A stretch of DNA of 64,000 nucleotides from Diplocarpon mali (Eukaryota; Ascomycota; Leotiomycetes; Helotiales; Drepanopezizaceae). Both the position numbers and the translations under genes were made by a program. The notes beneath the pieces are model-generated. The model was not told the DNA's origin, did no database searches, and saw only the letters and a list, made by a program, of their open reading frames with translations. Where the stretch lies: positions 1-64,000 of the forward strand of contig JAENRP010000244.1 in the NCBI GenBank assembly GCA_024741835.1, given 5' to 3'. Of the stretch, positions 880 to 64,000 are shown in pieces (position 1 is the first letter of the stretch; each line of letters begins with the position of its first letter).

Positions 880-902
880 ACTCGCAGTCTTAGCCTATAA
901 GT
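880..902. repeat. 23-bp palindromic element (A1)
   Basis: Left arm ACTCGCAGTCT and right arm with TATAAGT are RIP-altered forms of the common palindrome. The D counterpart is at 41854-41876. Confidence 0.75.
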
Positions 903-1595
903 CAATTTTACTAATAAGCGAGTCTTAGATTATTAAATCCTATCGATTAAATAAGGACCCGCTTTTAAAAGCCTTAATAGGTAGATCGGCTTTCAATTAA
1001 ATATAAAACTTACTCTATCTATAAAGAAGATAAGCCGATAGACTTCTTAAGGACTTAGTTCAAAATCTCAATTAGCTTAAATAATTGCGAAAATGAAGTA
1101 AAAAGAAATCTTATAGCCTATTACTAATAATAGCAATCTAATTATAGTAATAATAAAATAAAGATACCTTTTTAAAATACTTTTGAATAATCCTTATAGA
1201 ACTAGTAGTTTTATAACCTTTTATAATAACTATATAGCTATTTGCGATAAGAATACCTTAGAAAATAAGACTCGAATCTCTAATATTATCTTTTTAATCT
1301 TTACATTAAAGTAACCTCTAATACCTTAATAGATTAATATAAGTAAAACCACTATACCTTTTAAGGTAGCTTTTCATTTTGAAAACTGTAGTAGCCTCTT
1401 TAAAGCTATTATTAATTAATACTCTTAAACAGATCCCTTAATCATAATCGAAGTCCAGGAGTTATTCCTTCTTAATAAAAACGAATTGAAAATCCACTTT
1501 GCAAAATATAATCAGAAACTCTTTAACGCCCTTATTAATGTCTAAATAAATGTTATAAATACTAAGTCGCTTTTATATAATCTTAAGTCCTAAGG

Positions 1596-1894
1596 TGTTG
1601 GTACGCAGATTCCTATGCAAGAGGCAAGCTGCCCTTATTCCTAGGGTCATCCTATATAGCTGTACCATATGCGATATAAGAGGTTTCGTATGTATTTTAG
1701 ACGGCTGTTTAGCCGGAGGACTTCGGAAGGATATCTATATACGGCTAGGAGGGACTATAGGAGGGAGGACATTTATAGGTATAAAGGTACTATCTCGGTT
1801 ATATAGAGATAGACAGATATTATAATAGATTCTTTTTGGCAATAAGTACTTAACTATATTCACGTGAATATCGATTACCGGTATAGAACCTATA
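1596..1894. repeat. Solo LTR (family J) inserted in A1
   Basis: These 299 bp are absent from the otherwise collinear D copy (D reads straight across at about 42570). They begin TGTTGGTAC, end GAACCTATA (CA mutated to TA) and are flanked by TAAGG on both sides (1591-1595, 1895-1899). This is the pattern of a solo LTR left by recombination between two LTRs. It is GC-richer and keeps more CA/TG than its surroundings, so it looks less RIP-mutated or younger. A short non-autonomous LTR element is the alternative. I see no other copy in the window, and the small open frames here look incidental. Confidence 0.8.
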
Positions 1895-2068
1895 TAAGGA
1901 TAATGCGATAAAGTAAATACTATTAAAGAGCCTAATATACTAATTGATAAAGATATTATTATAAGAAAGTTTAGAAAAGAGATAAACTGAAATGCTAATA
2001 AAGTACTAGACCCTAATTTAGGAACTAATCCCTTATTTTTACCCTTAAGCTTAGAAACGCCAAGACTA

Positions 2069-2091
2069 ACTCGCAAGCCTAGCCTGCGAGT
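2069..2091. repeat. 23-bp palindromic element (A1), well preserved
   Basis: One of the best copies: left arm ACTCGCAAGCC, right arm GCCTGCGAGT. It is shared with D at 42739-42761. Confidence 0.85.
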
Positions 2092-2340
2092 GAGGTTAGA
2101 CTTAGCTAGCTTTAACCTATAAAATAGTTTAAGTGAACTTCGGCCACTAAATCTAAAGGTATTAATAGATAATCCTTTAAAAGAGGTCCTCGAATCTAAG
2201 AAGTCGCTAAGTAATAAGAACTAACGCAAAAGAAGAAGGCTCTAAAGCGATAATAAAACCGATAATTAAGTTAAGCAATCTAAAGAATTAAGGCTACTAC
2301 CTTTAGAAAAGGCTATTTAGAAAAATTATAAATTTAAGTT

Positions 2341-2848
2341 GAATTTTTTAGGATTATCTACTTCTTATATACCTACTCCTCTTTATTCTTTATTTACTAT
2401 TCTATTTTATGTATATTCTTTATTTACTTTACTCCTTATATAATTCATTCTTTAATTATTTCTTTTATATACTGCTTTCTAACGCTTACCTTTGATATAT
2501 TATCCTTACCTTTAATAAACTATCATTCACTAATTATAGGTCCTTATACACGTTACACCCCACTTTTATTCCCCACTTTCAGCCTCTTTATACCTACTTC
2601 TCCTTTGCGTACTAGTACAATTCCAAACTCTATAAATAGGCCTCCCCCTTGCACTACGATTTTACTTTTTTTACTTCTTCTACAACCCTACCAGACCCTA
2701 GCACCAATACCAATAATACTTCTACTATTTTCCACCATCAATCTTTTCTAATACAAGCCTTCCGTCTTATTAATATTTCCTAAAAATACTCTTCTACTTT
2801 TTCAATACCATACTTCTTACCAAATAATTCATTATAGCACTATTAAGC
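2341..2848. other. A1 spacer between accessory ORFs 1 and 2
   Basis: A pyrimidine-rich, very A+T-rich interval with many CTTTATTTAC-like stretches. It corresponds to 43000-43518 of D. I see no coding frame in it; it may hold the promoter of ORF 2, but nothing in the sequence proves that. Confidence 0.5.
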
Positions 2849-3721: not shown

Positions 3722-3744
3722 ACTCGTAGGCCTGGCCTATAAGT
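3722..3744. repeat. 23-bp palindromic element (A1)
   Basis: Left arm ACTCGTAGGCC, right arm GGCCTATAAGT. D counterpart at 44392-44414. Two further A1 copies at 3908-3930 and 5960-5982 are more altered but match D at 44578 and 46630. Confidence 0.8.
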
Positions 3745-5137
3745 AGAATCAGCACGTAATAGAGAAGTCCTTAAGCATAAGGTGCCTATAATACCTAAAG
3801 CTTAAGCAGATAACTAGCCCGACCACTAATCTTCCGACTTAGACAAATTTGAATTACCATCCTTAGAAATGCCTTAAATACCTTAAATACTAGTAGTAAA
3901 GAAATCGAATCGCAAGCCTAGCCTAAAGGTTAGTATATATAATAATAGAAACTTAAAAGATAATCTAATAGATAAAGAAAATAGCACTATTACCAACGTC
4001 TTAGAAATTTTTAATAATACTAAAAAGGATATTGCAAATATTATACAATCTTTCCTTAAGGACCTATAAAAGTTTATTTTCAAATTTTATAAGTTAATAA
4101 TAAGACGTTTAAAGAAGGAAGGCTAAGGAGAAGTTTTATTAGCATAAGAAGGAATAGCAAAAGCTATTAAATAGATTATAAAACTGCAATAAGACGAATT
4201 CTCTATAAATAATATTATATAATTCTTTATCAACTATAAGAAATCAAAGGGCGACTACTATATACTTAAGGAGAAGCCGGAAGATACTATAATAATAATC
4301 TCTATAGAATGTTATCAAGTCCCGTTTAATATCAAAATAATACCATAGTATAATAATAGATTTAACGTCATAATAATATTAGAAATAAAGATACGCTTAA
4401 GTAAATTCGTAATAGGGATATTTAAAGACTTCTATTTTAAGAAATTTTATACCCTCTATAAATAATAATATGCACTATACTATAGACTAGCATCAATAGG
4501 CACTACTAACAAAGAGGTATTATCTAATATCTACAAATTTTGTACTACTTCTAATTTAAAATTGTTCTTACTATACCTTAGAAATCATACGATAATAGCT
4601 ATTAGCAATAGAATAGCTAATTAAATTAAAAAAGATATATCGCTAAGTTTCTTTAAGTTTAGAATAGCACTTAAAGCTTTAAAATTACTCTATAATATCG
4701 CTTAAACCCTTGCTTAATATAAAACAATACTAACTAAAGATACCTTAATATCGCTTTGCACTAAAGGTTTCTTAAATATACCTAAGTTATTAAATTATAC
4801 CTTCTTAAGCATTATACGCACGTATAATGCTAATAACTATAAAAAGAATTCATTTTTAACATTAGTATAAGAAGAGTTATAGATATACTAATATCATTTC
4901 CGAACCCTTAATAAAAAGCCTTCCTCTCCTTCTACCTTCCTTTATAATATAACTCATAGCTTAATATAATAGACCTTAAGGATATACTATAATCTATATC
5001 TTAATACTCTATTAACTTATTATAATTCTTTATATAAGCTAGTAGCGTATCCTAAGCTTGTATAGTTTATAAGTATTAACTACTATTCGAGAATTGTTTC
5101 TATTAATATTAACGCTAATATAAGATTCGTAAGGTTA

Positions 5138-5160
5138 ACTCTTAGGCCTAGCTCGCAGGT
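5138..5160. repeat. 23-bp palindromic element (A1)
   Basis: Left arm ACTCTTAGGCC with right arm ending GCTCGCAGGT. It is shared with D at 45808-45830. Confidence 0.7.
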
Positions 5161-6098
5161 TAATTCCCTTAATAGTAGAACTATTAACTATTATATAATC
5201 CCTACTATTAAACAATCGACTAAAGAATTTACTATATAAGAAAAGTCTTATAAGTCATCTATACTTATACCCTATCTTCTTAGGAACTCTTAATAGATCT
5301 TGCTAATTTTAGTATAAAGCGCAGCTTAATAGAAAGAATTAAATACTAAGGATAGAACAATTTTGAAGAAGTATATCTCTAATAAGACTGCTCTATTCTC
5401 TATATTTATAAGATAAGGCACTTTTATTAACTTAGATTCCGATAGAAAGCCTAGGAAGGGTGGTTTTCTTACTATTAGTAATAATTATATAGAAGTTGTT
5501 AGTAATAACACACTTAAGAATAGAGCTAATTTAAAGGATTTCCTTATCGACTCTATTAATATAAAAAAGCCTTAATTGTTAAAATAGGACATAGTCTATA
5601 AATCTTCCGCAAGATTCTAAATAATAATTAGAATAATAAAAGGTGGTCTATTATCAGAAGCCCTTATAGGTAAAAGATTATAGAATGACCTATTAGTAGT
5701 AATATTAGTAAAGGAGTTATTTTCCAAAGACGTAGCACAATTGATAATATATCTAAAGAAATATAAGTAAGAACTCTTTAAAGATTTTTCAAATACGTAG
5801 AAGATGATTCAATAACTAAAACTACAACTATATAAAGATAAATTATAGACTAAGACAAAAGGTAGCAATAATAATATTAAGGCTAATAATATAATTAATA
5901 AGACGATACTTCTTAAGAAGTATAGCACTAAGAAACCCTATACTAAACCCTTTAATACAATTCCTAAGCCCGGCCTGCAACTTGATTTGACTAAAGGTAA
6001 AGAGAAGGAAATATTATCTATTAAGTTACTAATCGCCTCTCCCTTTGCTATTAACGACTCTTTAAAGGACGATAATAATAATAAAGATAAAGATAATA

Positions 6099-6345: not shown

Positions 6346-6640
6346 TACCCCTTTAGGGAGACCTTTAAAGGTACTCGCTAGCAACACATATGACGTTATA
6401 ACTTTTGTTATAATTTACAGTTTCGTATGAAAAATCAACCTGCAGATATGGGAAATAGAGTAGAGTTCGCTAGCGCGCTCTACTCTAGAGTAGGAAATCC
6501 ACCCCTTAAAAAAGTTAAAATCAACTCGCGGGCCTGGCCCAGGAGTAAAAAAAAATCACCCCTTAATAGAAGTGCAAAAAAAAATCACCCTTTAATTGAG
6601 GTGCAAAACCTTTATATTTAACAATTTAATAAAGGCGGCG
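6346..6640. other. B 3' untranslated region with polypurine tract
   Basis: Directly inside the left LTR, the plus strand reads TACCCCTTTAGGG, a polypurine tract on the minus strand that primes plus-strand DNA synthesis. A palindrome with strong arms (ACTCGCGGGCC and its partner CCCAGGAGT) is at 6524-6546. No gene seen. Confidence 0.65.
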
Positions 6641-9057: not shown

Positions 9058-9080
9058 ACTCCTAGGCCAGGCCTGCGAGT
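9058..9080. repeat. 23-bp palindromic element (C)
   Basis: Left arm ACTCCTAGGCC, right arm GGCCTGCGAGT. It is at the same place as D 32717-32739. Other C copies are at 10037-10059 (same place as D 33726) and 10593-10615. Confidence 0.85.
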
Positions 9081-9094
9081 AGGAATATAAAAAT

Positions 9095-10380
9095 ACGATT
9101 TTGCATAACTTAAGTTCTTTATCTTTACCTTCGGCAACTGCACTTGCTTTTTCAATATTAATACTTAAAAATATTAAAAACGTCAATTTTAAACCTCCTT
9201 CTAACCCTTTGCCTAAATCTTTTCAAGCTTGCCTTAGTTACTTTAAGATTAATTCGGATTTTAAAAACTCTTTGGAATACCTTAAGCCCTATATTCGACC
9301 TAGCTCCCCCTCTCTTATTAAAATAAATAAAGTGATAATGGCCGCCTTTAAAGCTATTACTAATCATTTTCCTCTTTCTAATTCCCTTAGCGCTCCTTAT
9401 TTCACTAGAGCTAATATTACTAATTTCCTTAAATAATATAAGGAGACTTATTATAATTTTAGTATTAGATATAATAAGATAATCAATCGACTTTCCTACT
9501 ATTATAATTAAATTAGCAAAGATATTATCAAATCTCTACTTAAGTAGAAGCTTCGCAAGTCTTAAGAACTACTTATTAAGGCTCTTAAAGCTGAATTTTA
9601 GGAATTTGATAGATAGTAGATTCGTAATACTCTAGCCTTTCTAAAGGAGTTTATTCTTATTACTCGCACTCTTAAGGAACTTAAAAACTACTATCGGACC
9701 TTCACTTAAGTGTCGAATACCTTAATCGATTAGAAGATTCTTAGTAAAGTTAAAAGAGGACGCCTATTCTTATTTGAATTGCCTATTAGCCTTTAAAATA
9801 AGATTATTAAGCATTTTAGAATTAATAAGTATAATCTTATAATATATACTTAATTCGAAGACTTCTTAACCTTCGCTTTAAAAGCAGACCTTAGCGAAAG
9901 GACTATTAAGGCAATAGAAAAGGAGAAAGAGCCTACCTCCTCCTTTATTAAAGATCTTAAAAGCCTAGTGCAAGAATATTCAAAGGCTTTAAAGATTACT
10001 AAAGAGGTAAAGAGAAATCTAATAGTAATTCCCTTTACTCGCAGTCCTAGCTTAAGAGTGAAATTTGCCTTAAAAATCAAGGAACTCAAAGCCTAGTTTT
10101 CTAAACTCTATATTTAATATTTAGAAACCTTAATTAAAGGCCTTCTTTAGGAAACTTATCGCGCCCTTTAATTTGATAATCGATAGGCTTTAAAAGGCAA
10201 AAATTAGTACGCAAACTCTAAATATCTAAATCCAGCTTCCCTTAAGTTGAATAAGCGAGTTGCTACTTTAGAAAGGCTTAATAATCGAATATAGCTATAT
10301 TAAAGGAATTCTTAAATTATTAGTCGAATTTTATATAAAGCTTGGATTTTCTTTAGTAAGGATGCCTCTTAAGTTGGTTA
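9095..10380 (+). pseudogene. C gag-like polyprotein, RIP-degraded
   Basis: A plus-strand frame, open to 9436 and then broken by TAA/TAG, matches the gag of D around 32790-33830. It has a capsid-like region with Tyr-rich helices and a block reading LFELP then NKIIKHF, which resembles the fungal gypsy gag motif around Gly-Leu-Pro. Palindromes interrupt it at 9058 (5' edge) and 10037. No zinc knuckle, protease or pol follows. RNA packaging by partners is inference. Confidence 0.65.
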
Positions 10381-10778
10381 AGGCATATATACTTAGGATT
10401 ACTTAAAATTGTTTTCGAATTTTCCTTAAAATTGCGATTTAATAGCTTTAATAACTTTGAGCTTTTAACTTGCGGTTTTAAACTAAGAGTCGTATTACCA
10501 AAAGGGAAAAAGGAGTTTTTTTATCATTTTTTATTCGTTTATTACCGCACCTCCCCCTTTCCCCTCTCCCTTTATATATTTCTTTAAAATCTACTTGCAA
10601 GCCTAACCCGCGAGTTAAAAAAAAAACCTCTCTCCTCTCCCTACCTTTACGACTTTAGGTACTAACCTTACTTATACTTATTATTTTTACAAATAGGGAT
10701 TGGTATTCTCGACTTACAAGAGTCTTATATTCTTTACTAATAGTAGTAGAGGCTACTACTTAAGTTAGTTAAGGTATA

Positions 10779-11028: not shown

Positions 11029-13864
11029 TTAAAGTTGATCGCAGATCGCTATTTATCGGCGTTAGTGCGAGAGAGGGCTTATTCGACTGTTTTCAGGTCA
11101 TTTGGGTATAGAGAGTCGAATAAGGCTATATAGAAGGCGCCTAAATAGGCTTCCTTATCATTAGAGTTATCAGCTTTGAATCTAAGAGCAGTAGAGCAAG
11201 TAGCTCTCTTCTTAAAAGGCTAAGGGTAAGCCTTGTTCTTTAAACTAAGAGGTCTTCCTCTCTTTCTTAGAGTTGGAAGCTCAGCTTTAGTAGCTTCTCC
11301 TGAATCGACTCGCGGTCCCGGCCCAGGAGTGAAATCACCCCTCAATTGCAGCTCTATAATTAGGCCGTCTTTATTAAATCGAACGTAAGATGATCGAATA
11401 ATCTTCTCTCCTATTCGCAATAGTATATAGATCTGATAGATACTTCTGCTATCAAATCTGATAAGAATACCTACTTCTACTCTTAAAGCGAGTTTATTAC
11501 TTTAAGTTTGCTTTTCTTTCTTAATTAGCATATAGACGCGATAGCCTAGTACTCTAAGATGCTTAATTAAAGGAGTATAAGGCTTATTAGGCTCGATATC
11601 GTCTTAAAAGACCTTATATAGAGTCTTGCCACTTAGAATATTAGAGGCAGTAAGATTAATAATATATATTATCGAAAGAAGGAGGTAAGGCCAAAGAAAG
11701 GAGGGGATATTTTAATCAATTATAGTTATTTGCAACTTTTCTATTAGTATACGAATTGATCGTTCCGATCTGCCGTCTTATTCTAGTATATATAGAGTAG
11801 ATTCCTTTAAAATCATACCGAGGTTTTCTACGAGTATTCGCGTTTATATAGGAGAGTACTCCTTGCTTCTATTAGTTCTCTACTGCTTAATTATGCGATT
11901 ATACTAAGTTTATAAAAGGCTGATCATCTTCTTATTTGCCTTAAAGGCATTAGATTTATTTATATAAGTCTATTCCTATTTAGCTATTATAGCTAAGCAA
12001 GTGAAGATAGAAGCGTATTTGTGGCCGTTAAGGCCAGTTAGCTTTAAATGAACTACATTGATATATAGCTTATCAAGTGCCTTCGTAGGTCGAGGGCGAG
12101 CTGAACGTTTATTAATATATTAGAGAGGTCTGCCCTTCTCGCAGGGAGCGCAAATTCGCATCTTTTCTGATTTTGTTTCCTTAATCTATATATTAGTAAT
12201 AGCAGATTAGGTCTTTCTAACCGTTTATAGGCTAGCATGGCCTAATCGACGGTACTAGACCTTAATATTAAGAGGTCTATTCTCGATAGCAGCTAAGAAA
12301 GCATATCCACTTACATAACTAAAGGAGTTAGTAGAAGGCTATTCCTTATTAATATATATATTATTATCAATAGTGCAAATTTCCTTCTTATTAGATAGGA
12401 ACAGCTTGCTATTTCGATAAAAGCCTTTGATTTTATTGAGTTTACTACCTAAATATAAGCAGATAGGTGATTAAAGTATATAGAGAGTATTAATTAACTT
12501 AAGAATATATACCTTTCTATTAGATTTAAGTGCGTTGACTTTGCAAGTGCTAACGCCGAAAGGTTGAATAGATCTATTAACTATACTTAAAGAGGGTAGA
12601 TTGTCTTAAGTAATATAGGAGGTGAACTTAGAGAGATTATTAGAGATATACTTATTAGTACTTATATTATATAGCTAACGATTCCTCAATTTTAATAAGA
12701 AGCAGAAGGTAGAAGAACTGACTCTTAGGCCTGGCCTATAAGTAGAAATTGGCCTTAGTAAGGCATTGACTCTTAGGCCCGGCTCGCGAGTGAGAATTGG
12801 CCCTAGGGTTAGTAATAGTATAGTATGCCTAAAGAGGTCATTATCTGACTCTTTATCTTCCTTTTGAATCTTCCTAAAAGGCTTCTTACCTTTTAGTAAT
12901 AATAATAGTAAGGACTTATTGTCTTTGCCTTTAAGGTGACGGAATACGTACTTCTTCCCTAAGTCCTTCTCCTAGGCCTCTCTTTTCGATTTATTAATTG
13001 CAAAGCAATCTTCTACCTTATAATATAGCTTTAGTTGCTTGCAATAAGGATAAGGGGAGTTAGAGGAGGTAGTAGTATTCCTAGAAGTACTCTTCTTTAA
13101 GTCTTTAAAACCTCTCTTATTTTCTAACTTCTTATAATTAGAGGAATGCGGTTTACTAGCCGATTTATTACTATATAAGACAGTTCTATTTATTTTAGAA
13201 CTTTATAAGGCTTGAGCTTTATTAGTGATATCTTTAATAAGAGCTTTAAGCGTAATCTCTGATTTTCGTCCAGCTGCTATAGCTAAGCGAAGGTTAAAGC
13301 GTTATCGATCTACCTAAATAGGCCATCTATTAGAATAGCTAGCAATAAATTTAATAGGGTGCTAGTAAGAGGGAAGGGCAGAGTCGAGAGCTTCCAATTT
13401 AATAATTAAAAGCCTAAAGGCGATAACGTAAGCTTTGAGTAAGTTGAAGTTATTATATTTAATAGTAATATAGGTCTATATAGCATTATATTCAAGTACT
13501 ATTCCAGATCTTTTATACTATTTTTAAAGAGCTTCCCATATATCTAAGGGAGATTTATCGCCTTCTATATAAGCTAATAGGCCTAGTTTGCAATTAAGTA
13601 TAATAGTAAGCTTTATCTGAGATTCCTTAGCTTCTTATTTAACCTAATTATCCCTTTCCTTAAGAGTGATAGAACGGTCTTATAAGTCAACCTTAAGTAG
13701 AGTATATATTTTAGCTTTTGTATAAAGATACATAGTTAAGGCGTTTGACTTTGCAAGGTTTAAAACCTTATTCCTCTATTAGCTATAGTCCTTTGCGCCT
13801 TTAAGCTTTTAAGACTTAAGGAGGCTAAGGGCAGCCGAAGATAACGATATCTTATTTGTATATA
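11029..13864 (-). pseudogene. B copia gag C-terminus, zinc knuckle, protease region and integrase
   Basis: Read right to left on the minus strand. A copia zinc knuckle (Cys-x2-Cys...Tyr...Cys pattern with EDCFA) is at about 12990-13040. The integrase region (11700-12400) includes the Cys-x2-Cys and GRP...HVDV-like area near 12050-12170. The copia integrase C-terminal linker (11220-11600) shows HLRVLGYRVY and VRFNKDGLI. Palindromes fall at 11308 in the linker and at 12721 and 12769 (48 bp apart) between knuckle and integrase. E is inserted at 13864; the gag N-terminus lies beyond it. Confidence 0.8.
12721..12791. repeat. Pair of 23-bp palindromes, 48-bp period (B)
   Basis: Copies at 12721-12743 and 12769-12791, with arms ACTCTTAGGCC/GGCCTATAAGT and ACTCTTAGGCC/GCTCGCGAGT. 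The 48-bp spacing is a whole number of codons. A single copy at 11308-11330 has arms ACTCGCGGTCC and GGCCCAGGAGT. Confidence 0.85.
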
Positions 13865-14459: not shown

Positions 14460-17400
14460 ACGGTAATAGCTTCTGATTCCGATCGAAATACTAGGCTTAA
14501 AGACCTCTAACTCTTTCGAAAGAATTGGTAATAATGGTTCGACGATTTAAAGCTTTACTTTAAGAGCAAAGGCATTAAAATAGCGATTTAAAAGACACTT
14601 ATTAAATATGCGAGAATAGCCTCTTATACTCCCTTTACTAATTTGTCTACTTTTACTTTAATAGCTAATATAACTACTAAGGATTTGCTAAATATACTAA
14701 ATAAGCTTAGCTTAAGAGCTTTAGTAGATAATAACTGAGAATCCTAAAGGTAGATTTTAAATATAGAAAAGGAGAAGGAGTATAGGCTAGCCTTAGCCAA
14801 ATGCAAGCTTAAGATTAATAGAGGTTTAAGCGATAAAGATAGAGATTTTATTTAAGTTTATAATAATGCAAAGATAAGATAAGATACTTTAAAGGTAAAA
14901 TACTCTTAGATAACTGCCTTCGATACTTAGCATTTGCTATAGCAGATCACTTTATTTTAGTATAGAAAAGATAAAGATAGTAAGGATATAGATATAAATA
15001 TAGACTCTACCTAGTCTATACTATATAAAGTAAAGAGAAGAGTAAGAGCCGCAGATCTTAGGATAGCTATGACTTTTAAGGAAACTTAGCTTTTTAGTTT
15101 CCTACTTAATAGCCTCCCTCTTAAGTTCGCTATTGTAAAACAATCTCTTCTTATTTAACCTAACCTTAAGATCTATAAGAAGATCGACCTCCTTTAAACT
15201 ATTGAGTAAGACCTTAAAGGACGCTCTAAATCGGCAAATGCTATATTATAGGGTAATAATAAGCCTAAGAAGAAGAAGGAGCGCGGGACAAGCCCTTGAG
15301 CTTATTAGGGATACTACTTTTATAATAGTGCTTATAATATTACTAATTATAAAGTTAAAAGGCAATTAATCGATATAGTCGCCAGCTTTAATATTAAGAA
15401 GCAATCGAAGCAAAAGTTAAAAAGCAAACTGCCCTTATCCTATTAAAGGCCGCAACTATTAAAGAAAGGTAAAGGAAAAGGCTATTTAGCCAGAACTTTT
15501 GCAAATACCTTTAATAATAATAGTAGGTTATTTAAACTTAAATCCACTTCTAATAATTCAAATAATAATTATAATAAAGATACTTACATTTTAAAAGCCG
15601 ATCTTTATAAGATCTTTAAATCCGATTAGTATAGTAATACTAATTATATAGTATATATAATTAATAAATCCTACTTATTTAAAGGCCCGCTTACTAAAAT
15701 AAAAAGGCGCTTTATTAAAGTTAGTAGTAAAAGGTTATATATAAACTTAATAGGTATAATAGAGATAAATATCGCTAGCATTTCTTTCCTTTTATAAAAT
15801 GTTCTCCTTATACTTAGCCTAAGTATTAATCTTTTATCTAATTATAAGATTTATATAAAGTTAAATTATATAAGGGTTTTTAATAATCAATTTATATAAT
15901 TTATAAATAATAATTATAAAGTGATCTTTAAAGTTAAAATCAAAGATAGACTTTATATTATTTCAAAGGTAATATTATAGAAATTAACTCTTAAGCCGGA
16001 CTTATAAGTAGATTCCTTTAAGGAAAGTGCACTCTTTGCCCTAATATAATTAAGCGAGGATAAGGAGAATAGATGGACTTTTAAGCTAAGATTATAAGTG
16101 AAATTTATAAAAATGACTTTTAAGCTAGGACTATAAGTGGATTATAAAGTATTTTTAAAGATGACTCTTAAGCTGGGATTATAAGTGAATTTAGTAGAAA
16201 TAACTCTTAAGCTAAGACTATAAGTGAATTTTGCAAATTCGCTAATAATAACTCTTAAGCTAGGGTTGCAAGTGAAATTCGCAAAAATAACTCTTAGGCT
16301 AGGACTGTAAGTAAAACTCGCAAATTTATTAAAGACGACTCCTAAGCTAGGACTGTAAGTAGATCTTGCTATTTCTAGGAAATCGACTCTTAAGCCAAGA
16401 CTGTAAGTAGATCTCGCGGTTTTATTAAAAACGACTCTTAAGCCAGGCTTACAATTAGAAAATGGCAAAACCTTAAATTGCTATTACTAGTCCTTTCTAG
16501 CCGCCGATAATAAAGCATTAATTAATAATAGGCTACTAAAGCTATTAGAAGCCGAAAGCCTATTAAGGTATTAGCTAATATATAGAAGATTTGCATATTT
16601 AAGGTTAAAGAAATTAAAGGGCTTATATAAGGTCTCGATCTTAAAACGGAAGATTTAAATACTAAAGGATCGCCTAATATATTAAATTTATAAGCTAATA
16701 AAACTTCGAAATTAAATATAAACTAAGCTTAATTTATAAAAAGATTTAATACTAGTGCTAATATCTATTAATACTATTAGACTATTTATAACTTTAATTA
16801 AAGGAAATAATTGGTTTTTTTAAATAGTAGATAACTCTACTTAATAAATATAGACTATTTGCGCTAGGACTAAATCTAAACTTATAAAAAAGCTGGAAAC
16901 TTAGAAAGTAATAAAGGAACGCTAGACCTAGTTAAAGCTAATAGCTATTAAGTCTAATAATATATTAAAGATTAGGGCAAAGCTTAATAAATAGGTAAAA
17001 TAAAGAGTTTATTACAAACTAATTATAATATACAAAGGTTCCTATTAGAATAGCATTACTAAGCGAAGCATTTAATAAGTAGAGATTAACTATCGCACTC
17101 TATTATAAGATACTAACTTACTATTAGAATTCTAAGACCTTATAATTAAGGTAGATATATACTTGCGAAATAGAATAGGTAATAGACTAATAGTTAATAG
17201 CACCTAAATATTACTATATAAGGCATATTTCAGATAGAAACTAAGCCTAAACTATATTTGCGTTTTTAAAAGCGTCTACTACTCTTATATTAGCCTAAAG
17301 TCTTAGCCTGCGGGTATAAAGAGCAAGAAGCTAATAGATTAAAGTAGAGAGTATATATTTATTAAGTATATTAAATAAATAATAAAGTAATAAATAGTAT

Positions 17401-19567: not shown

Positions 19568-19716
19568 ACTCCTAAGCCTACCCTACGAGTTAGGTTATAT
19601 AGTTTTATAAAAGAAAGTTTTTAAATCGACTCTTAGGCCTAAACCGCAAGTCAAGTCATATAGTTTTATAAAGGAACGCTTTTAGGAAATTTGACTCCTA
19701 GTCTTACCTTATAAGT
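19568..19716. repeat. Three palindromes in the E 3' region
   Basis: Copies at 19568-19590, 19629-19651 and 19694-19716, spaced 61 and 65 bp, so not codon multiples. They lie after the end of pol. H (26944, 26883, 26818) and I (47863, 47802, 47736) have the same three. Confidence 0.8.
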
Positions 19717-22413: not shown

Positions 22414-22526
22414 ACTTATAGGCCAGGCCCAGGAGTGGAATTGATCTGCGCTAAAGTCACTTGTAGGCCGGGCCTAGGAGTAGAATCGATCTGCGCTAAA
22501 GTCACTTATAGGCCGGGCCTAGGAGT
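22414..22526. repeat. Three palindromes, 45-bp period (F, RNase H-integrase linker)
   Basis: Copies start at 22414, 22459 and 22504; arms such as ACTTATAGGCC and GGCCTAGGAGT. Each unit is a 23-bp palindrome plus a 22-bp spacer carrying GATCTGCGCTAAAGTC, so 15 codons. It lies between RNase H and integrase. Confidence 0.92.
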
Positions 22527-24390: not shown

Positions 24391-24548
24391 ACTCGCGGGC
24401 TAGGCCTAGGAGTAGAATTCGAGTTTGCAGTTTTCACTTATAGGCCAGGCCTAGGAGTGGAATTCGAGTTCGCAGATTTCACTCGCAAGCCAGGCCTAAG
24501 AGTAGAATTCGAGTTCGCAGATTTCACTTATAGGCCAGGCCTAAGAGT
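24391..24548. repeat. Four palindromes, 45-bp period (F, protease-RT linker)
   Basis: Copies start at 24391, 24436, 24481 and 24526, exactly 45 bp apart. Arms such as ACTCGCGGGCT and GGCCTAGGAGT; spacer with GAATTCGAGTTCGCAGATTT. In the coding (minus) frame each unit reads like STPRPSPRV. Confidence 0.93.
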
Positions 24549-26817: not shown

Positions 26818-26966
26818 ACTTATAGGGTAGGATTAAGAGTGAAATTTCCTAAAAGCGTTCCTTTATAAGATTATATGACTTGACTTATAGTCTAGGCCTA
26901 GGAGTCGATTTAAAAACTTTCCTTTATAAGACTATATAACTTAACTCGCAAGGTAGGCCTAAGAGT
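26818..26966. repeat. Three palindromes in the H 3' region
   Basis: Copies at 26818, 26883 and 26944, at the same places as in E. Arms such as ACTTATAGTCT and GGCCTAGGAGT. Confidence 0.8.
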
Positions 26967-42600: not shown

Positions 42601-42960
42601 CCTAATATACTAATTAATAAAGATATTATTATAAGAAAATTCGGAAAAGAGACGAATTGAGACGCTAGTATAGTATTAGACCTTGATTTAGGAACTAATC
42701 TCCTATTTTTACCCTTAAGCTTAGAAACGCTAAGACTAACTCGCAAGCCTAGCCCGCGAGTAAGGTTGGACTCAGCTAGCTTAAGCCTATAAGATAGTCC
42801 GGATGAACCTTAGTCACCAAATCTAAAGGTACTAATAGAAGATCCTTTAAGAAAGGTCCCTAAAGCTAAGAAATCGCTAAAAAATAAGAACTAATATAAG
42901 AGAAGAAGACTCTAAAGTGATAATAGAACTAATAATTAAGTCGACTTGATTTAGAAAATT
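39623..42960 (+). pseudogene. D accessory ORF 1, unknown function
   Basis: A retained ATG at 39623 starts a frame of about 1,100 codons when TAA/TAG are read through. Its N-terminal 200 residues align with those of ORF 2 (for example SLKSFKSTY...LGDIKQQ against SLEDIVSTY...LGKIEQQ), and a later block (KRAIRQIQQLILDKF, about 40850) matches ORF 2 at about 44830. One base is missing at about 41330 relative to A1, shifting the frame by one. Lys/Ile/Leu-rich, helical in character, with no RT, integrase, envelope-like membrane segment or protease motif seen. Palindromes at 40469, 41854 and 42739. Confidence 0.65.
42739..42761. repeat. 23-bp palindromic element (D)
   Basis: Arms ACTCGCAAGCC and GCCCGCGAGT; same site as A1 2069. 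Other D copies in ORF 1 are at 40469-40491 and 41854-41876. Confidence 0.85.
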
Positions 42961-43518: not shown

Positions 43519-46500
43519 ATAAGTAAAAAGGCTATACTTAAGAAGAATATATCTATTATTACCTTAGGCAGCAAGTCCTTAAGTACTACTAATAATAAAC
43601 TAATATTAAAGGGAGGGTTTTCATAAGATAGCAAGTCATTAAGATCATTAGAAGATATAGTAAGCACTTATAGAACGTTAGGTAAGATAGAATAGCAGGT
43701 ATTTCTGAATTCATCTATTAAGGTACTTAACTATAGAATTTCTACTATTAAGGAAGGATTCTTAAGTTTTGATAATTTCTTAGATAAGGAACTCTAAGGC
43801 AAAGGTATTAATTAAGAAAAGTTTTTATAAGAGTATTAAAGGTATACTAATTTAATTGATTTGTTTTAGAAGAACCAAGATAAGAAAAATAAGTATATAA
43901 AAAGATTAATACAATTCATAAACAGCACTTATAGTACACTTTTTCAAATACACTTTATAACTGATATTACTACTAATAACACCCTATAGGGGCTTAGCAA
44001 AATTTTTAAGATATATCAACTAATAGCAAAGGCTATATAGGTATTAAATTATTTTACTATTTAAAAGGGTATGAAAAAGCTATAGGGAAATAGTACGCAA
44101 GGTAGAAAATTTATAGGTTTCTTAAGTACTATTATACACTCTACTATTTAAATTATAAAAGATAGCCCCGCCTAGTATGATAATTTTACACTCCTTGATT
44201 AAATAGTTTTAAATACGCTCAGCTTATAACAATTATAATACAATCTACTTATTATAAAAGAAAAGATGATTTATCTCGCTAAGTATACTATAAACTACTT
44301 TAATAATAAAATAGAGAAATAGGAATTTGTTATCCCTGCCGCTGCAAAGCTACTACTACCAATGGCCGAATCAATAAATAAGCCCGACTTAACTCGTAGG
44401 CCCAGCCTATGAGTAGAAGAAGCATATAATAAAGAAGTCCTTAAGTATAAGGTGCCTATAACACTTAAAGCTTAAGTAGAATACTAGCCTAACTACCTAT
44501 CTTCCGACTCAGACGAGTTTGAATCACCGTCTTTAGAAATGCCCTAAACACCTCAAATACTAGTAGTAAGTAAATCGAATCGTAGGCCTGGCCTATAGGT
44601 CAGAATACGTAATAATATAGACTTGGAAGATAAGCTAATAGATGAAGTGGATAGCCCTATTACTAACGTATTAGAAATTTTTAATAATACTAAGAAGGAT
44701 ATATCTAATATTATATAGACCTTTCTTAAAGATCTGTAAAAGTTTATTCTGAAATTCTATAAGTTTATAATAAAGCGTTTGAAAAAGGAAAACTAAGGAG
44801 ATATTTTATTAGCATAAGAGGTAATAGCAAGAGCTATTAAATAGATTATGAAATTGCAATAAGACGAATTCTCTTTAGATAATATTATATAGTTCTTTAT
44901 CGACTATAAGAAATCAAAGGGCGACTACTATATGCTTAAGGAGAAGCTTAAAGACGCTATAATAATAATCTCTATAGAATGTTATTAAGTCCCTCTTAAT
45001 ATTAAGATAATACTATAGTATAGTAATAAATTCAGAGTTACAGTAATATTAGAAATGAAAACTCACTTAAGTAAATTTATAATAGGGATATTTGGAGACT
45101 TCTATTTTAAGAAATTTTATACCCTTTATAAATGATAATATGCATTATACTATAGACTAGTATCAATAGGCATTACTAATGAAGAAGTATTATCTAACCT
45201 TTATAAATTTTATACTACTCCTAATCTAAGATTGTTCTTATTATACCTTAGAAATCATATAATAGTAGCTATTAGTAATAGAATGGCCAACTAGATTAAA
45301 AAAGATATATCGCTAGGTTTCTTTAAGTTTAAAGTAGTACCTAAGGCTTTGAAATTATTCTATAATATTGCTTAGACCCTTGCCTAATATAAAACAATAC
45401 TAACTAAGGATACCTTAATATCGCTTCGCACTAAGGGTTTCTTAAATATACTTAAATTATTTAGCTGCGCATTCTTAAGTATAGTTCGCACGTATAATTA
45501 TAGTTTTTAAAGAAAGAATTCATTTTTGATATTAGTATAAGAGGAAATGGAAATATATAAGCACTATTTCCGAATCTTAGATAAAAAGCCTTCCTTTCCT
45601 TCTACCTTCCTCTATAATATAACTTATAGTTTAATATAACAGACTTTAAGGATATACTATAGGCTATATCTTAGTACTCTATTAACTTGCTATAATTCTT
45701 TATATAAGCTAGTGGCATATCTTAAGGCTGTATAGTTTATAGGCATTGACTACTATTTGAGAGTTGTTTCTATTAAGATTGACGCTAATACGAGATTCGT
45801 AAGGCTGACTCCTAAGCCTAGCTTGCGGGTCAGCTCCCCTAATAGTAGGACTATCAATTACTATATAATACCTATGGTAAAATAATCAATTAGAGAATTC
45901 GCTATATAGGAAAAATCTTATAAATTATTAGCTCTTACCCTCTTACGCTTAAAGAATGCTTAATAGGTCTTACTAAATCTGGTATAAAATGCAATATAGT
46001 AGAAAGAATTAAATACTAAGACTAAGACGCTACTTAAGGAATATATCTCTAATAAGACTACCCTATTCTCTATATTTATAAGATAAGGAATGTTCGTTAA
46101 CTTAGAGTCTAGTAAAGAGCTTGGAAAAGGTAGGTTCCTTACTATTAGCAATAACTATACAGAAGTTGTTAGCAATGACTCACTTGAAAATGGTACTAAC
46201 TTAGATAAGTTTTATATTAAGTCTATCTGTATAAAGAAACCGAGCACTATAAGATAGAGTATTACTAGAGAATCGTTAGCTAAGTTTTATATAATACTTA
46301 ATATAATAAAAGGTGGCCTACTATTAAAGGTACTTATAAAGAGACGACTATAAAATGATCTATTAGTAGTAATAATAATAAAAGAGTTGCTATCTAAAGA
46401 TATAAGTCAGCTAATAACCTATTTAAAGAAGTATAAGTAAGAACTTTTTAATAATTTTACCTATACTTAGAAACTGATTTAATACTTAAAGCTATAATTA

Positions 46501-46977
46501 TATAAGGATAAATCCTAGGCTAAGACAAAAGGCATTAACGATAATATTAAAGCTAATAACGTGATTGACGAGACAATTCTTCTTAAGAAGTATAGCATTA
46601 AAAAGCCTTATGCAAAAACCCCTAATACAACTCCCAGGCCTAGCCCGCGACTTAATCTAAAGAAAGGCAAGGCTAAGGAGGTTATAGCCGTAGAATCTCC
46701 TACTATATCCCCCTTAATAGTAGATGACTCTTTAAAGGATAATAATAATAATAAAGAGGATGATAATAATAACGCCGCGATACAAGTCTCCCTCCCTATT
46801 AGTAGAAGCCGTTAAACTATACTAGCATCTTTACAAAATACTAAAGCTCTTATAATACTAAGACCGGACTCTTCTAATACTAATAGTGAACTATTGAAAA
46901 GAAGTAGGCGCTTTATAAAGAGAGTATTATCCGATGATAGTTCTCCTTATCTCTTAAAGAGAATTAAGGAAAATTGA
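43519..46977 (+). pseudogene. D accessory ORF 2, unknown function
   Basis: The start reads ATA (ATG mutated) followed by SKKA. The same frame reaches a TGA at 46975-46977, so about 1,152 codons with no net frameshift; internal stops are TAA/TAG. It is a paralogue of ORF 1. A well-kept central part (44810-45500) reads LQQDEFSLDNIIQFFIDYKK and onwards; near the end an Asp/Asn-rich run (46735-46775) precedes a basic tail. Palindromes at 44392, 44578, 45808 and 46630 sit in the coding frame. I recognise no family; envelope-like features (signal peptide, membrane anchor) are not apparent. Confidence 0.68.
44392..44600. repeat. Two palindromes in D accessory ORF 2
   Basis: Copies at 44392-44414 (arms ACTCGTAGGCC, CCTATGAGT) and 44578-44600, 186 bp apart, a multiple of three. 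The same pair exists in A1 at 3722 and 3908, also 186 bp apart. Confidence 0.82.
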
Positions 46978-47054: not shown

Positions 47055-47077
47055 ACTCCTAGGCCCAGCCTATAGGT
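47055..47077. repeat. 23-bp palindromic element (D 3' region)
   Basis: Arms ACTCCTAGGCC and GCCTATAGGT. Same site as A1 63856-63878, just downstream of ORF 2. Two further D copies in ORF 2 are at 45808-45830 and 46630-46652. Confidence 0.82.
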
Positions 47078-47735: not shown

Positions 47736-47885
47736 ACTTATAGGGCAGGACTAGGAGTTAAATTTCCTAAAAGATGTTCCTTTATAAGACTATATGACTT
47801 GACTCGTAGTTTAGGCCTAGGAGTTGATTTAAAAACTTTCCTTTATAAGACTACGTGACCTAACTTACGGATTAGGCCTAGGAGT
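47736..47885. repeat. Three palindromes in the I 3' region
   Basis: Copies at 47736, 47802 and 47863, at the same places as in E and H. Confidence 0.8.
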
Positions 47886-50800: not shown

Positions 50801-52945
50801 CTTCTATTTTAAGGTTAAGACCTTATATAAGCCCTTTAATTTCTTTAGCCTTAAGTATGCGAATCTTTTATATATTAGCTAATACTTTAATAGGCTTTTG
50901 GCTTTTAATAGCTTTAGTAGCCTATTATTAGTCGATGCTTTATTATCAGCGGTTAAAAAGGACTAGTAATAGCAGTTTAAGGTTTTGCTATTTTCTAATT
51001 GCAAGCCTAGCTTAGGAATCGTTTTTAATAAAATCGCAAGATCCACTTGCGGTCTTAACTTAAGAGTCGTCTTTAACGAATTTGCGAATTTCACTTATAG
51101 TCTTAGCCTAGGAGTTATTTCTATAAATTTCACTTGCGATCTTAGCTTAAGAGTTATTATTAGTAAATTTGTAAAATCTATTTGCGGTTTTGGCCTAAGA
51201 GTTATTTCTATTAAATTCATTTATAATCTTAGCTTAAGAGTTATCTTTAAGGATACTTTGCAATCTACTTATAGTCCTAGCTTAAGAGTTATTTTTACGA
51301 ATTTTACTTATAATCCTAGCTTAAGAGTCTATCTATTCTTCTTATCCTTACTTAATTGTATTAGAGCAAAGAGTATACTTTTCTTAAAGGAATCCACTTA
51401 TAAGTCTGGCTTAAGAGTTAATTTTTATAATATTACCTTTAAGATAATATAAAGTCTATCTTTAATTTTAGTTTTAAAGATCACTTTATAGTTATTATTT
51501 ATAAACTATATAAATTGATTATTAAAAACTCTTATATAATTTAACTTTATATAAATCTTATAGCTAAATAAAAGATTAATACTTAAGCTAGGCATAAGGA
51601 GAATATTTTACAAAAGGAAAGAAATGCTAGCAATATTTATCTCTATTATACCTATTAAGTCTATATATAACCTTCTATTACTAACCTTAATAGAGCGCCT
51701 TTTTATTTTAGTAAGTAGGCCTTTAAATAAGTAAGGTTTATTAGTTATATATACTATGCAATTAGTATTATTATACTAATCGGATTTAAAGATCTTATAA
51801 AGATCGGCTTTTAAAATATAAGCATCTTTATTATAATTATTATTTGAATTATTAAAAGTGGATTTAGGTTTAAATAACCTATTATTATTATTAAAGGTAT
51901 TTGCTAAAGTTCTGGCTAAATAGCCTTTTCCTTTGCCTTTCTTTAATAGTTGCGGCCTTTAGTAAGATAAGGGTAGTTTGCTTTTTAACTTTTGCTTTAA
52001 TTGCCTTTTAATATTAAAGCTAGCGACTATATTAATTAGTTGCCTTTTAACTTTATAATTAATAATATTATAAGTACTATTATAGAAGTAGTATCCCTAA
52101 TGAGCTTAAGGGCTCGTCCTGCGCTCCTTCCTCTTCTTAGGCTTATTATTACCTTATAACGCAGCATTTGCCGATTTAGAGCGTCCTTCGAGGTCTTGCT
52201 TAATAGTTCGAAGGAGGTCGATCTTCTTATAGATCTTAAGGTTAGGTTAGATAAGAAGAGATTGTTTTATAATAGCGAACTTAGGAGAAAGGCTATTAAG
52301 TAAGAAACTAAAAAGCTAAGTTTCTTTAAAAGTTATAATTATCTTAGGATCTGCGGCTCTTACTTTCCTTCTTACTTTATATAATATAGATTAGGCAAAG
52401 TCTATATTTATATTTATATCCTTGCTATCTTTATCTTTTTTATATTAAAATAAAGTAATCTACTATAGTAGATATTAAGTGTTAAGGGCAGTTGTTTAAG
52501 AGTATTTTGCCTTTAAAGTATCTTATCTTATCTTTGCATTATTATAAACTTAAATAAAATCTTAGTCTTTATCGCTTAAACCTCTATTAATCTTAAGCTT
52601 GCATTTAGCTAATGCCAGCTTATACTCCTTTTCCTTTTCTATATTTAAAATCTGCCTTTAGGATTCTCGGTTATTATCTACTAAAGCTCTTAGGCTAAGC
52701 TTATTTAATATATTTGGCAAATCCTTAGCAGTTGTATTAGCTATTAAAGTAGAAGTAGACGAATTAGTAGAAGGAGTATAGAGGGCTATTCTTATATATT
52801 TAATAAGTATCTTTTGAATCGCTATTTTAATGCCTTTGCTTTTAAAGTAAAGCTCTAAATTGTTGAACTATTATTGCCAGTTCTTTTAAGAGAGTTAGAG
52901 GTCTTTAGGTCTAGTGTTTCGATCGGAATCAGAAGCTATTGCCAT
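47900..52945 (-). pseudogene. I copia gag-pol polyprotein (RIP-degraded)
   Basis: The start ATG is retained on the minus strand at 52943-52945 and is followed by the gag N-terminus with ASDSDRNT; this copy identifies the start for E and H. Order leftwards: gag, zinc knuckle about 52040-52110, protease about 51480-51860, palindrome array 50997-51418, integrase about 49950-50990, RT about 48720-49330, RNase H about 47960-48450. Stops are TAA/TAG at Gln/Trp positions. The plus-strand frame 50985-51452 is a shadow of the array. Confidence 0.88.
50997..51418. repeat. Array of nine palindromes inside I pol
   Basis: Starts at 50997, 51045, 51093, 51132, 51180, 51219, 51267, 51306 and 51396, with the same spacings as H (48, 48, 39, 48, 39, 48, 39, 90). 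Confidence 0.9.
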
Positions 52946-55540: not shown

Positions 55541-55639
55541 TATTTTTATATTTTTATTATTTTTCTCCTTTTTTTTATTTATATTTTTAAATTTATTTAC
55601 TAACCTATTTCGCATCTGGCCTATTATCTTCTAAATGAT

Positions 55640-61528: not shown

Positions 61529-61533
61529 AGTAC

Positions 61534-62450
61534 TTTTAAATAAATATTTTTATAGCTATCTTTTAAGCGTTATAGGTGATTTCGCCTTAGTAGTTGCTAA
61601 AATGGGTTTAAAGGTACTTGATCTAATAGGGGTCGATAGCTAAGACTAAAGGTCAGATAATTAAAAGGTAGTAGTCTAAGGGAGGCAATAAGTCGGCGGT
61701 AAGGGATTGAGTGTTCTAAGGACTAGCACTTAAAGAAGAAGGGGCAGTAGCATTATTTTAAAGAGCAGCGGCTATAATAGCGCTAATGAGGTTCGCGATT
61801 TCGGCCTGCTAAGCAGCTAAGAAGAGAGGGGCCGATATAGTAAGGGTAGATATTATTAGAGAGAGTATATCTTCTTCCTTAACTTCAATCGATAGAAAAG
61901 GAGTATTTCGAGAATCTACTTATAGGCTAAGCCTAAGAGTAGAATCTGTACTAAAGGAGGTAACTTCTTAAGTAGGCTTAAGAGGGGGAATATCTCTAGG
62001 ACTAGGGTTGGCAGTAAGGCCTATAGAACTAGTAGTAGTAAGGCCTATAGAACTGGTGGCAGTAAGGCTTATAGAACTAATAGCAGTAAGGCCTAGTAGT
62101 AGAGGTGCGGTTAACCTTTTACTCCTTTTAAGTGGTATAAGATTAGAGGTTATAAGTACTAACTCTTCTTATATTATCTGATTTAGTCTAAAGGGACCTA
62201 ATGCTAAATAGTGACCTATTTAAAAGGAGGAAGATTAGTATAGGTAGAGCTATATACGTTCTTAAAGCCTTCTAATAGAGTATATATTAAGGTATTATAG
62301 GTTTATAGATCTTAAGAAAGAAGGTTTTACTTTAGGATTATATCTTTTCGCTAATTAGGAGTTGCAATAAGGTTATTTAAGGGTATAGTGCAAATCTGGG
62401 GAAGTAGGGTTTAAGGATCTAAAGCTTATCACTTTACTAAAGTTGACCTA
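61534..62450 (-). pseudogene. F gag N-terminal part
   Basis: Continuation of F gag right of the G insertion, minus strand. It contains a palindrome at 61918-61940 and a 24-bp tandem repeat at 62013-62092. The protein region is low-complexity (Thr/Ser/Leu/Gly-rich), as gag N-termini often are. The start codon was not identified with confidence. Confidence 0.6.
62011..62095. repeat. 24-bp tandem repeat in F gag, about four units
   Basis: The motif AGTAAGGCCTATAGAACT begins at 62013, 62037, 62061 and 62085, exactly 24 bp (eight codons) apart, so it keeps frame. Confidence 0.85.
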
Positions 62451-63126
62451 ATCTCTAATAGTATAGTATAACCTATTAAGGCTGATTAAGTCTTTATATA
62501 TATATATAGGTATAGGTCCCTTAGTTTTGTACTTAAGTATTCGAAGGAAGGAGTAAGGAGCTTTAAAGAGTATAAGGAGAGTTGTCGATAAGTATAGGTC
62601 AATAGGGAGTATAAAGAAGGTCGATGACTTATTTATAAAGAGGGTTCTTTAAAAAGTCGAATTGTATTTAAGGGTTTTAAAGGAGTAAGGAGCTTTAAAG
62701 AGTATAAGGAGAGTTATCGATAAGTATAGGTTGATATAGTATAGAGTGTTTATAAGGGAGGGAGAGAGTTAAGAAAAGAAAAGTTATTATACTACTTTAG
62801 GCAGCAGCCTATATTAGCAAAGCAAAGGTATAATAAATAAATTTTTTTTTTCTTTTCGAATTGAAATTAAAGGTGAATTTCTATTTGCAAAATAGGGTAG
62901 GTAAGAGGTCGAAAAAACGAGCTAATCTTATATTCGAAGGTTATTATTCAGCTTTCTTCAAAAACTAGATTAGTAAGATCTAGGCGCTATATATAAGTTG
63001 CTTAAGGTAGTTTGTAATAGAAGAGTCGAGATTAAGAGATTAAGTTACTTAAAGCAGTTCGAAGTGACGATTCTAAAGGGGGTAGATATTAAGCTTCTTA
63101 GCAGAGGTTAAGTAGATCTTTTCTTA
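62451..63126 (-). other. F leader with a duplicated segment
   Basis: Non-coding region between gag and the 5' (right) LTR. A segment of about 52 bp containing GGAGCTTTAAAGAGTATAAG occurs at 62548-62600 and again 132 bp on at 62680-62732. Purine-rich in plus, with no gene seen. The primer site should lie just left of 63127, but I cannot match it to a specific tRNA. Confidence 0.6.
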
Positions 63127-63377
63127 TATTACAACTTACTCTAAAGCATATAAAGGGGCGATAATCGAATAATGCTAATTGTATTACCTTAAGAGGTACG
63201 CTATATAATAGAGAAGAAAAGATAAAGAAGAGAGAGTCTTTAGTAGAGCTCCTTTAAAATAAGTATAGGTGCTTTACTAGTATGCATATGATCTAGCCAC
63301 CTTGCTACCTTAGCATGCACCTGACTTCAATACGTGATATGACCGTGCACAACCGTGCCCGTGATGCGGCCGTAACA
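63127..63377 (-). repeat. F right LTR (5' LTR), 251 bp
   Basis: Begins TATTACAAC (TGTTACGAC mutated) and ends GCCGTAACA. Same length as the left copy; more CA-to-TA change in its left half. Confidence 0.95.
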
Positions 63378-63382
63378 AGGTG

Positions 63383-63559
63383 CAAACGACGATATTAGAT
63401 GTCTTGATTCATAAGAGCTCTTTAACTAAGAGCTATTTAAGGTAAGCGGGCTTCTTAGAGAAGCCGCTAAGTCATATGGCAAGTCATATGACATATTATG
63501 TATATGATATATTATATGACAGATTATATGACAAACATGTGACGGGCATACCTGCAACA
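63383..63559 (-). repeat. B right LTR (5' LTR), last 177 bp
   Basis: Matches 6169-6345, ending CCTGCAACA with the intact CA terminus. It follows the second copy of the F target site AGGTG (63378-63382). Confidence 0.95.
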
Positions 63560-64000
63560 TAATAATAATACTATAATATAAGTTTCCCTTCCTATTAGCA
63601 GAAGTCGTTATACTATACTAGTATTAATAAGAAGCATAGAGACGCCTATCATACTAAGACCTAGTTCCTCTAATACTAATAGCAAGCTATTAAGAAGAAG
63701 TAGGCGCTTTATAAAGAGAGTATTATCTAATGATAGATCTCCTTGCCTATTAAAGAAGACAAAAGGAAATTAACACCTGAGTTAGTACTACTTTTAATGA
63801 TTTTTTTAAAGAGATTCTATAGTTTGCTTATTAGTTTTACTAGTTTCATTTTCTAACTCCTAGGCCTAGCCTATAGGTGAAAAGCGCATATAAAAAAAAC
63901 ACTCTTCTTTTTTTTTCTTTCTTTACCTTTAATAATAATATAGCCCTAGTTTAAGCCTTTTAATATATTAATTTGCTTGCACTTAGGGTTTTACTAATAA
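63560..64000 (+). mobile_element. Element A1, part 2: resumes after the B insertion
   Basis: After the TSD copy TAATA (63560-63564) the sequence picks up exactly where 6098 left off, matching D at about 46760-47210. It holds the last codons of accessory ORF 2, a 23-bp palindrome at 63856-63878 and a run of A then T that corresponds to the N gap in D. By comparison with D, the 3' LTR of A1 should start roughly 90 bases beyond the window end. Confidence 0.9.

Follow-up and report, generated by a model that had tools for sequence, protein, structure and literature searches.

Introduction

The Rickettsia palindromic elements (RPEs) and the GC clusters of yeast mitochondrial DNA are the two families of repeats to which we liken a 23-bp hairpin unit scattered through a 64,000-nucleotide stretch of DNA from Diplocarpon mali (contig JAENRP010000244.1 of assembly GCA_024741835.1, positions 1 to 64,000; hereafter the window). 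RPEs are longer than this unit, bacterial and found in host genes, whereas the present unit is nuclear and fungal and, in our sample, occurs only in repeated elements. RPEs are otherwise described in similar terms, as short palindromic units dispersed in coding frames and tolerated by the proteins, with an arm identity that fades (PMC6649704). The presence of units inside open reading frames of unrelated genes, as in RPEs, was found here at several coding sites of Ty3/gypsy and Ty1/copia elements, in retroelement genes only; the genome is the nuclear one of an ascomycete and not that of a Rickettsia-type bacterium, and the strong hits sampled lie in repeated DNA instead of host genes. GC clusters such as GC42 are described as short, GC-rich, hairpin-forming palindromes present in many copies in an AT-rich setting, as is our unit, but they are mitochondrial, are flanked by direct repeats of AG or ACT, and have been shown to be polymorphic for presence and absence (PMC4478555). 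The unit studied here is nuclear, often coding and without clear flanking repeats, and presence/absence polymorphism at homologous sites was not seen in this single genome, in which copies were scored at four sites. Because location, setting and polymorphism differ, the unit is a member of neither family.

Several other systems share some of these properties. The GC-rich palindromes of Neurospora, the ultra-short invasive elements of Podospora and the A/T palindromes of Fusarium are described as very short, dispersed and putatively mobile, like the present unit, but they are organellar, and the Fusarium units are intergenic A/T runs (PMC7218506). Mitochondrial genes of Magnusiomyces capitatus contain palindromic interruptions that are skipped by translational bypassing (PMC6649704); there also, multiple palindromic units lie within fungal protein-coding genes, but they are reported as mitochondrial and untranslated, whereas the open phase of our unit and its steps of three would fit translation. 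PARCEL repeats are coding and tandem, have dyad symmetry and are tied to mobile elements, but are described as a 25-residue amphipathic domain in microbial open reading frames (PMC2996958); the present motif is 7–8 residues long, can be read in several phases and also occurs in apparently non-coding DNA, and it forms no 25-residue tandem amphipathic protein repeat. Of the features of miniature inverted-repeat transposable elements, inverted arms are present and a target duplication is only suggestive. One of six 11-mers of the unit stands in 17 papers, none of which, to judge from titles and the opening lines of abstracts, deals with this repeat. The matches listed in our literature searches include no study of short palindromes in nuclear retrotransposons of fungi, and the main text of two published accounts of the Diplocarpon coronariae genome does not contain the word stem palindrom.

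Results

A preliminary description of the window had proposed more than 70 copies, counted by eye, of an 11-bp arm followed by one centre base and the inverted arm. This work confirms that a dispersed family of 23-bp near-palindromes is real. At 63 sites in the window, 13 or more of the 18 fixed positions of ACTCNNAGGCCNGGCCTNNGAGT are matched, while for 200 palindromes with permuted arms the mean was 0.31 such sites and the maximum 12, so that in this comparison, which the preliminary description had named as one that could speak against it, symmetric arms are far above chance. The family is thus large as described, but the count is not upheld, since 63 copies were found and their number varies with the match threshold; when the strict symmetric consensus is used, 15 or more of 22 positions match at 50 sites. 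A search of the genome (49.4 Mb in 676 contigs; all pattern-match counts are lower bounds), also suggested in the preliminary description, found the symmetric consensus with up to three mismatches in at least 722 places, compared with none for the reversed control. The RIP-changed directional form ACTTATAGGCCNGGCCTAGGAGT (RIP, repeat-induced point mutation) was found with up to two mismatches in at least 513 and at least 547 places on the two strands, again with none for the control. As an exact arm ACTCGCAGGCC does not occur in the window, its complement occurs twice, and ACTCGCAGGCC is therefore a consensus only.

The structure of the unit was determined from the window and twenty hit-centred 10-kb loci, which gave 200 hits with readable flanks and at least 12 of the 16 fixed positions of ACTNNNAGGCCNGGCCTNNNAGT. 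Grouped by flank identity these formed 43 groups, 7 of which were dropped by eye as chance matches, leaving 36 flank-distinct sites (flanks less than 60% identical), of which 30 have more than one member; independent sites are fewer than copies because many copies are tandem. The unit reads ACTCGCAGGCC N GGCCTGGGAGT and has a direction, because at arm position 5 the two arms are separated by a transversion in 27 of the 36 sites (by a transition in 2, with identity in 7, compared with 12.9 expected identities if arms were drawn independently). Exact genome matches number at least 3 for the directional consensus versus none for the symmetric one, and places with at most one mismatch at least 62 versus at least 18. 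Accordingly, the hairpin first described stands, but neither the exact arm nor the true palindrome does. The remaining arm differences are mostly transitions, as RIP makes them, with the exception of position 9 (12 transversions), and the earlier view that RIP has blurred the copies agrees with this decay. As single-stranded DNA the consensus folds with −8.7 kcal/mol (z −3.6), and one RIP-changed copy folds no better than shuffled sequences (z −0.8).

Conservation extends weakly beyond the 23-bp core, with RAWTYS on its left and SRAWTY on its right. In the representatives of the 36 sites, all 72 arms have a pyrimidine at base −2 and a purine at base +2, followed by a preference for A at +3, T at +5 and a pyrimidine at +6. 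No excess pairing between the left and right flanks was found that would extend the inverted arms beyond the core; the two sides have only this outer preference in common.

The unit lies in long terminal repeat (LTR) retrotransposons on many large contigs of an ascomycete nuclear genome, not in mitochondrial DNA. Ty3/gypsy and Ty1/copia elements carry it in both directions; it is found in coding linkers and also in parts that seem not to code, and the flanks are unrelated. The earlier report of units in both classes and inside coding frames is borne out by the 36 flank-distinct sites, several of which fall within coding parts of gypsy and copia elements. The further claim that the carriers share no other sequence does not hold for all of them: 8113–10185 and 31778–33874 are 73% identical over 2.1 kb and have two unit sites in common. 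Around each of the twenty targeted hits the DNA matches, for 200 bp or more, between 4 and 8 other sequences in hand; the GC content of the surroundings is 28–40% in 19 cases and 45% in one. A further 19 strong hits, distributed over 18 contigs, each have matches in 4 to 11 of 21 sequences, and identity in the longest of these is 68–88%. Repeated DNA therefore holds 39 of 39 strong hits, each matching at least four other sequences in hand, all of them taken from the top of the match lists. A copy in single-copy DNA would escape RIP and should therefore rank at the top of such searches; none was seen among those sampled. In six gene-rich 5-kb stretches chosen regardless of hits (38–56% GC per kilobase), no hit of at least 12/16 was found, 30 kb being too little to exclude rare copies.

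The best-characterized carrier is gypsy G (sequence L017; about 33.7–39 kb in the window), which encodes an aspartic protease (E 5e-7). It is 46–48% identical to proteins P0003, P0004, P0005 and P0007 over 1087–1186 columns, 41–46% to the shorter P0006 and P0008, and 33% to P0009; from their names, we take the Pfam domains listed for these relatives to be reverse transcriptase (RT), RNaseH and integrase zinc-binding domains. Its unit sites lie in the protease–RT interval, in the RNaseH–integrase linker and near the C-terminus. The copia sites lie after an SH3-like match (SH3_retrovirus, weak, E 0.03, in the carrier of the 11308 unit) and beside Pol_BBD (30599–31036, minus strand, E 2e-4, under Pfam's own cut-off). 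The placed coding sites in gypsy G and copia are thus inter-domain linkers. No Pfam match was obtained for elements A and C in the pieces tried. The gypsy G linker piece has two protein matches only, both from D. coronariae, at 67–70% identity, which places the host close to that species; no relative of the copia linker was found at E ≤ 0.001 among 1349 candidates. The D. coronariae genome is reported to consist of 20.7% copia and 5.7% Ty3 elements (PMC11527701).

The reading phase of each site was scored by counting stops in six frames over all its copies. Both lowest-stop frames are in phase 0 in 27 of 35 scorable sites, which collapse to about 17 independent coding positions when grouped by hand, and in this phase either strand reads T-x-R-P-G-L-x-V. 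The gypsy G site at 37771 is clearly in phase 1, where it reads LASPACE, with one stop in about 107 codons (L017); the site at 9058 favours a phase other than 0, and the remaining six scorable sites have no clear phase or are non-coding. The C-terminal site of gypsy G has no clear phase by stops, but alignment to P0005 shows phase 0. At two CpA/TpG positions of the core, RIP leaves the peptide unchanged only in phase 0, whichever of the three arm types is considered; in each of the other phases it creates a stop or replaces a residue. In 190 real units, read on both strands (380 readings), stops occur in 86 readings of phase 0, 180 of phase 1 and 266 of phase 2. RIP may thus explain the bias towards phase 0 without any function of the peptide.

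Many units form tandem arrays. Spacings of 23–130 bp (n = 75) are multiples of three in 63 cases, mainly 39, 45, 48 and 54, and the commonest periods are 13–18 codons; the other 12 spacings are mostly 61–65, in apparently non-coding arrays. Copies of one element vary in unit number by whole units, and the 11308 site has one to four tandem units in other copies. Slippage or unequal exchange, with past selection for the frame, would account for this pattern.

To define what is inserted, the preliminary description had proposed a search for empty sites in related copies. Joined flanks of four sites were searched against the genome and the best candidates scored (30 of 30 at 3722 in element A, 40 of 166 at 11308, 40 of 236 at 37771 in gypsy G, and 40 of 103 at 9058); no empty site was found among them. 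Exactly 23 bp, by subtraction of listed coordinates, are held by 25 of 25 scored copies that span both flanks at 3722, by 39 of 39 at 37771 and by 39 of 40 at 9058, the last copy holding 20 bp. At 11308, with 73 rows, two copies span both flanks and both are filled; no row read joins the flanks directly, the remaining rows being half-matches. Three unusual rows at this site (C86, C578 and C159) were considered as empty sites and rejected as a flank deletion and array variants. Comparison of the window with the twenty loci by blastn showed no empty site either, the gaps read in detail being whole tandem units or ordinary deletions, nor did six-frame protein comparisons, which were too noisy, as antisense frames match equally. 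Because the scored copies are all filled, each insertion, if real, probably predates the spread of its family.

A target-site duplication was sought in three tests, each with 7 to 11 lengths tried. A duplication of 7 bp gave p values of 0.002, 0.035 (0.075 with transitions allowed) and 0.042, and one of 4 bp gave 0.116, 0.011 or 0.008, and 0.008 in the same three tests. In protein comparisons, the C-terminal site of gypsy G corresponds to an 8-residue gap versus P0005 only, in a weakly conserved tail. By peptide pattern and alignment reading, at the protein level only, the motif is seemingly absent from the gypsy relatives P0003–P0009; absence of the pattern is a weak test, since the RIP-changed motif present in P0001 and P0002 escaped it too. 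At 56353–58609 lies a second family, with about 60% identity to element C (21550–23920); where element C has arrays, this family has no units of at least 13/18, and the DNA alignment is too diverged to place empty sites. The units and arrays of the window are listed in Table 1.

Table 1. Hairpin units and arrays located in the window
Feature	Position	Same site	Strand	Remarks
Unit	880..902	41854..41876		Isolated site, repeated element
Unit	2069..2091	42739..42761		Element A, phase 0
Unit	3722..3744	44392..44414		Element A, phase 0
Unit	3908..3930	44578..44600		Element A, phase 0 by stop counts
Unit	5138..5160	45808..45830		Element A, phase 0 by stop counts
Unit	5960..5982	46630..46652		Element A, phase 0
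Unit	6524..6546			Probably non-coding, adjoins A-rich repeats
Unit	9058..9080	32717..32739		
Unit	10037..10059	33726..33748 (+)		Phase 0 by stop counts; 33726 copy in gypsy G, scored in L017
Unit	10593..10615			Probably non-coding, CT-rich
Unit	11308..11330		-	After copia SH3-like match (towards RT), peptide TPGPGPRV
Two units	12721..12791		-	48 bp apart, peptides TYRPGLRV and TREPGLRV
Tandem array	15987..16456			Nine units listed, copia element
Two units	19568..19651			61 bp apart, apparently non-coding
Three units	22414..22526		-	Element C array 2, period 45; period and phase fit a coding linker
Four units	24391..24548		-	Element C array 1, period 45
Three units	26818..26966	47736..47885		Spacing 65 and 61, apparently non-coding, just inside inferred copia LTR repeat
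Three units	47736..47885	26818..26966		Spacing 66 and 61, apparently non-coding
Array	30078..30499			Seven units listed, downstream of copia Pol_BBD match
Array	51093..51418			Four units listed, copia family of the 30078 array
Unit	35642..35664		+	Gypsy G, protease–RT interval, phase 0
Unit	35804..35826		+	Gypsy G, protease–RT interval, phase 0
Unit	37771..37793		+	Gypsy G, RNaseH–integrase linker, phase 1 (LASPACE)
Unit	40469..40491			Phase 0 by stop counts in L017 (site 7559)
Unit	61918..61940	L008 1261		Phase 0 by stop counts
Unit	63856..63878	47055..47077		Phase not scorable

Some features beside these units were also observed. The unit at 61918 is adjoined by a 24-bp tandem repeat (62011–62095, 3.5 copies, GCAGTAAGGCCTATAGAACTAGTA) that has AGGCCTA in common with hairpin variants. 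The unit at 6524 is directly followed by a 29-bp A-rich repeat (6547–6608), the A-runs of which vary in length between copies of the site, and in some copies it has AAAATCA on both sides, which might be an old target duplication. The gypsy copy at 2896–6393 of L017 (35–41% GC per kilobase) is less changed by RIP than most copies in hand, although stops persist. Finally, 39692–42637 and 2948–5919 are colinear over about 3 kb with weak similarity (56%), which may reflect old homology or an effect of composition.

Discussion

This work describes an ultra-short, directional hairpin repeat in the LTR retrotransposons of a Diplocarpon-like fungus, and the explanation that we favour, tentatively, is that it is dispersed as nucleic acid within the retroelement cycle. 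The unrelated carriers, the two directions and the use of at least two reading phases argue for dispersal as nucleic acid and not solely as a peptide, and dispersal of this kind is real; a mobile element in the strict sense is no more than possible. Confinement to repeated DNA, both directions and fixation within families fit a spread inside the retroelement cycle. Copies would reach new elements as nucleic acid, most likely by template switching of reverse transcriptase at the hairpin between co-packaged RNAs, or else by templated repair, and each copy would then be multiplied by its carrier. Copies would be kept where a protein linker tolerates the unit, and those in phase 0 would survive best because RIP creates fewest stops there.

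Several observations weigh against this explanation. No empty site was seen among the scored copies. A target-site duplication is hinted at but none is clear, 4 bp having done better than 7 bp in two of three tests. At 37771, the one site across which six gypsy relatives align well, their linkers are 28–34 residues long compared with 27 in the filled copy, so that no net gain is visible, which speaks against a simple gain at this site, though linkers vary in length. Template switching is a step that we infer, and no enzyme, RNA or source element was found. Phase 0, although the least harmed by RIP, is not stop-free, and its dominance could also mean selection on the peptide.

Because one reading phase dominates, the peptide may have a role. 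If TRRPGLGV or TPRPGLRV were a useful, flexible, basic linker spread by recombination, with the symmetry of the DNA as a by-product, this would account for phase 0, for array spacings that are mostly multiples of three, and for the position of all placed coding sites in inter-domain linkers. We nevertheless consider it unlikely, as the two DNA directions encode different peptides, the 37771 site is in phase 1, apparently non-coding sites retain the same core and outer bases, and RIP provides another reason for phase 0. The earlier suggestion of a peptide-coding motif spread by recombination thus fails as sole route, given both directions and at least two phases, but is right in that phase 0 dominates. 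The rough symmetry of the unit, with conservation that fades outwards as in binding sites, and its presence in several copies per element and in many families would instead suit a site recognized by a protein of the host or of the element (for silencing, packaging or regulation) that many retroelements retained or acquired in parallel. This is somewhat less probable again: in a strict dimer site, neither the asymmetry of position 5 nor the free loss of arm pairing would be expected, and a parallel origin of 23 conserved bases at 36 sites is unlikely without copying.

Less probable still is a DNA micro-element that inserts genome-wide by means of a trans-acting enzyme, as proposed for RPEs. Dispersal, both directions, the outer preference RAWTY and the hints of direct repeats point to it, but single-copy DNA, where copies should escape RIP, holds none of the 39 best-ranked hits sampled, no duplication is established and no scored copy is empty, so that the free genomic mobility implied by the earlier term "mobile micro-element" is unsupported. 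Descent of all sites from one ancestral block common to all elements is very improbable. Some families do share sites by descent (9058/32717 and 10037/33726), but the 36 sites differ in their flanks, in the gypsy or copia part that they occupy, in direction and in phase. The preliminary description had named confinement of the copies to one ancestral open reading frame block as another finding that would speak against it, and this is contradicted for most sites by the unrelated flanks.

To return to dispersal within the retroelement cycle, the recurrence of the unit in unrelated retrotransposons, mostly in one phase, suggests a minute parasite carried by other parasites. In its full form, that of a hyperparasite consisting of a 23-base hairpin that replicates only in the retrotransposon population, jumps between unrelated elements during reverse transcription and persists in coding DNA through the phase least harmed by RIP, this proposal is speculative and we regard it as rather doubtful. 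If copies do move between unrelated LTR elements, the unit would be the equivalent, in a nuclear genome, of RPEs and GC clusters, would mean that a sequence far too short to code for anything can spread among retroelements, and would constitute a record of copia–gypsy exchange in one host. It would also connect RIP with the reading phase of insertions in a way that can be tested.

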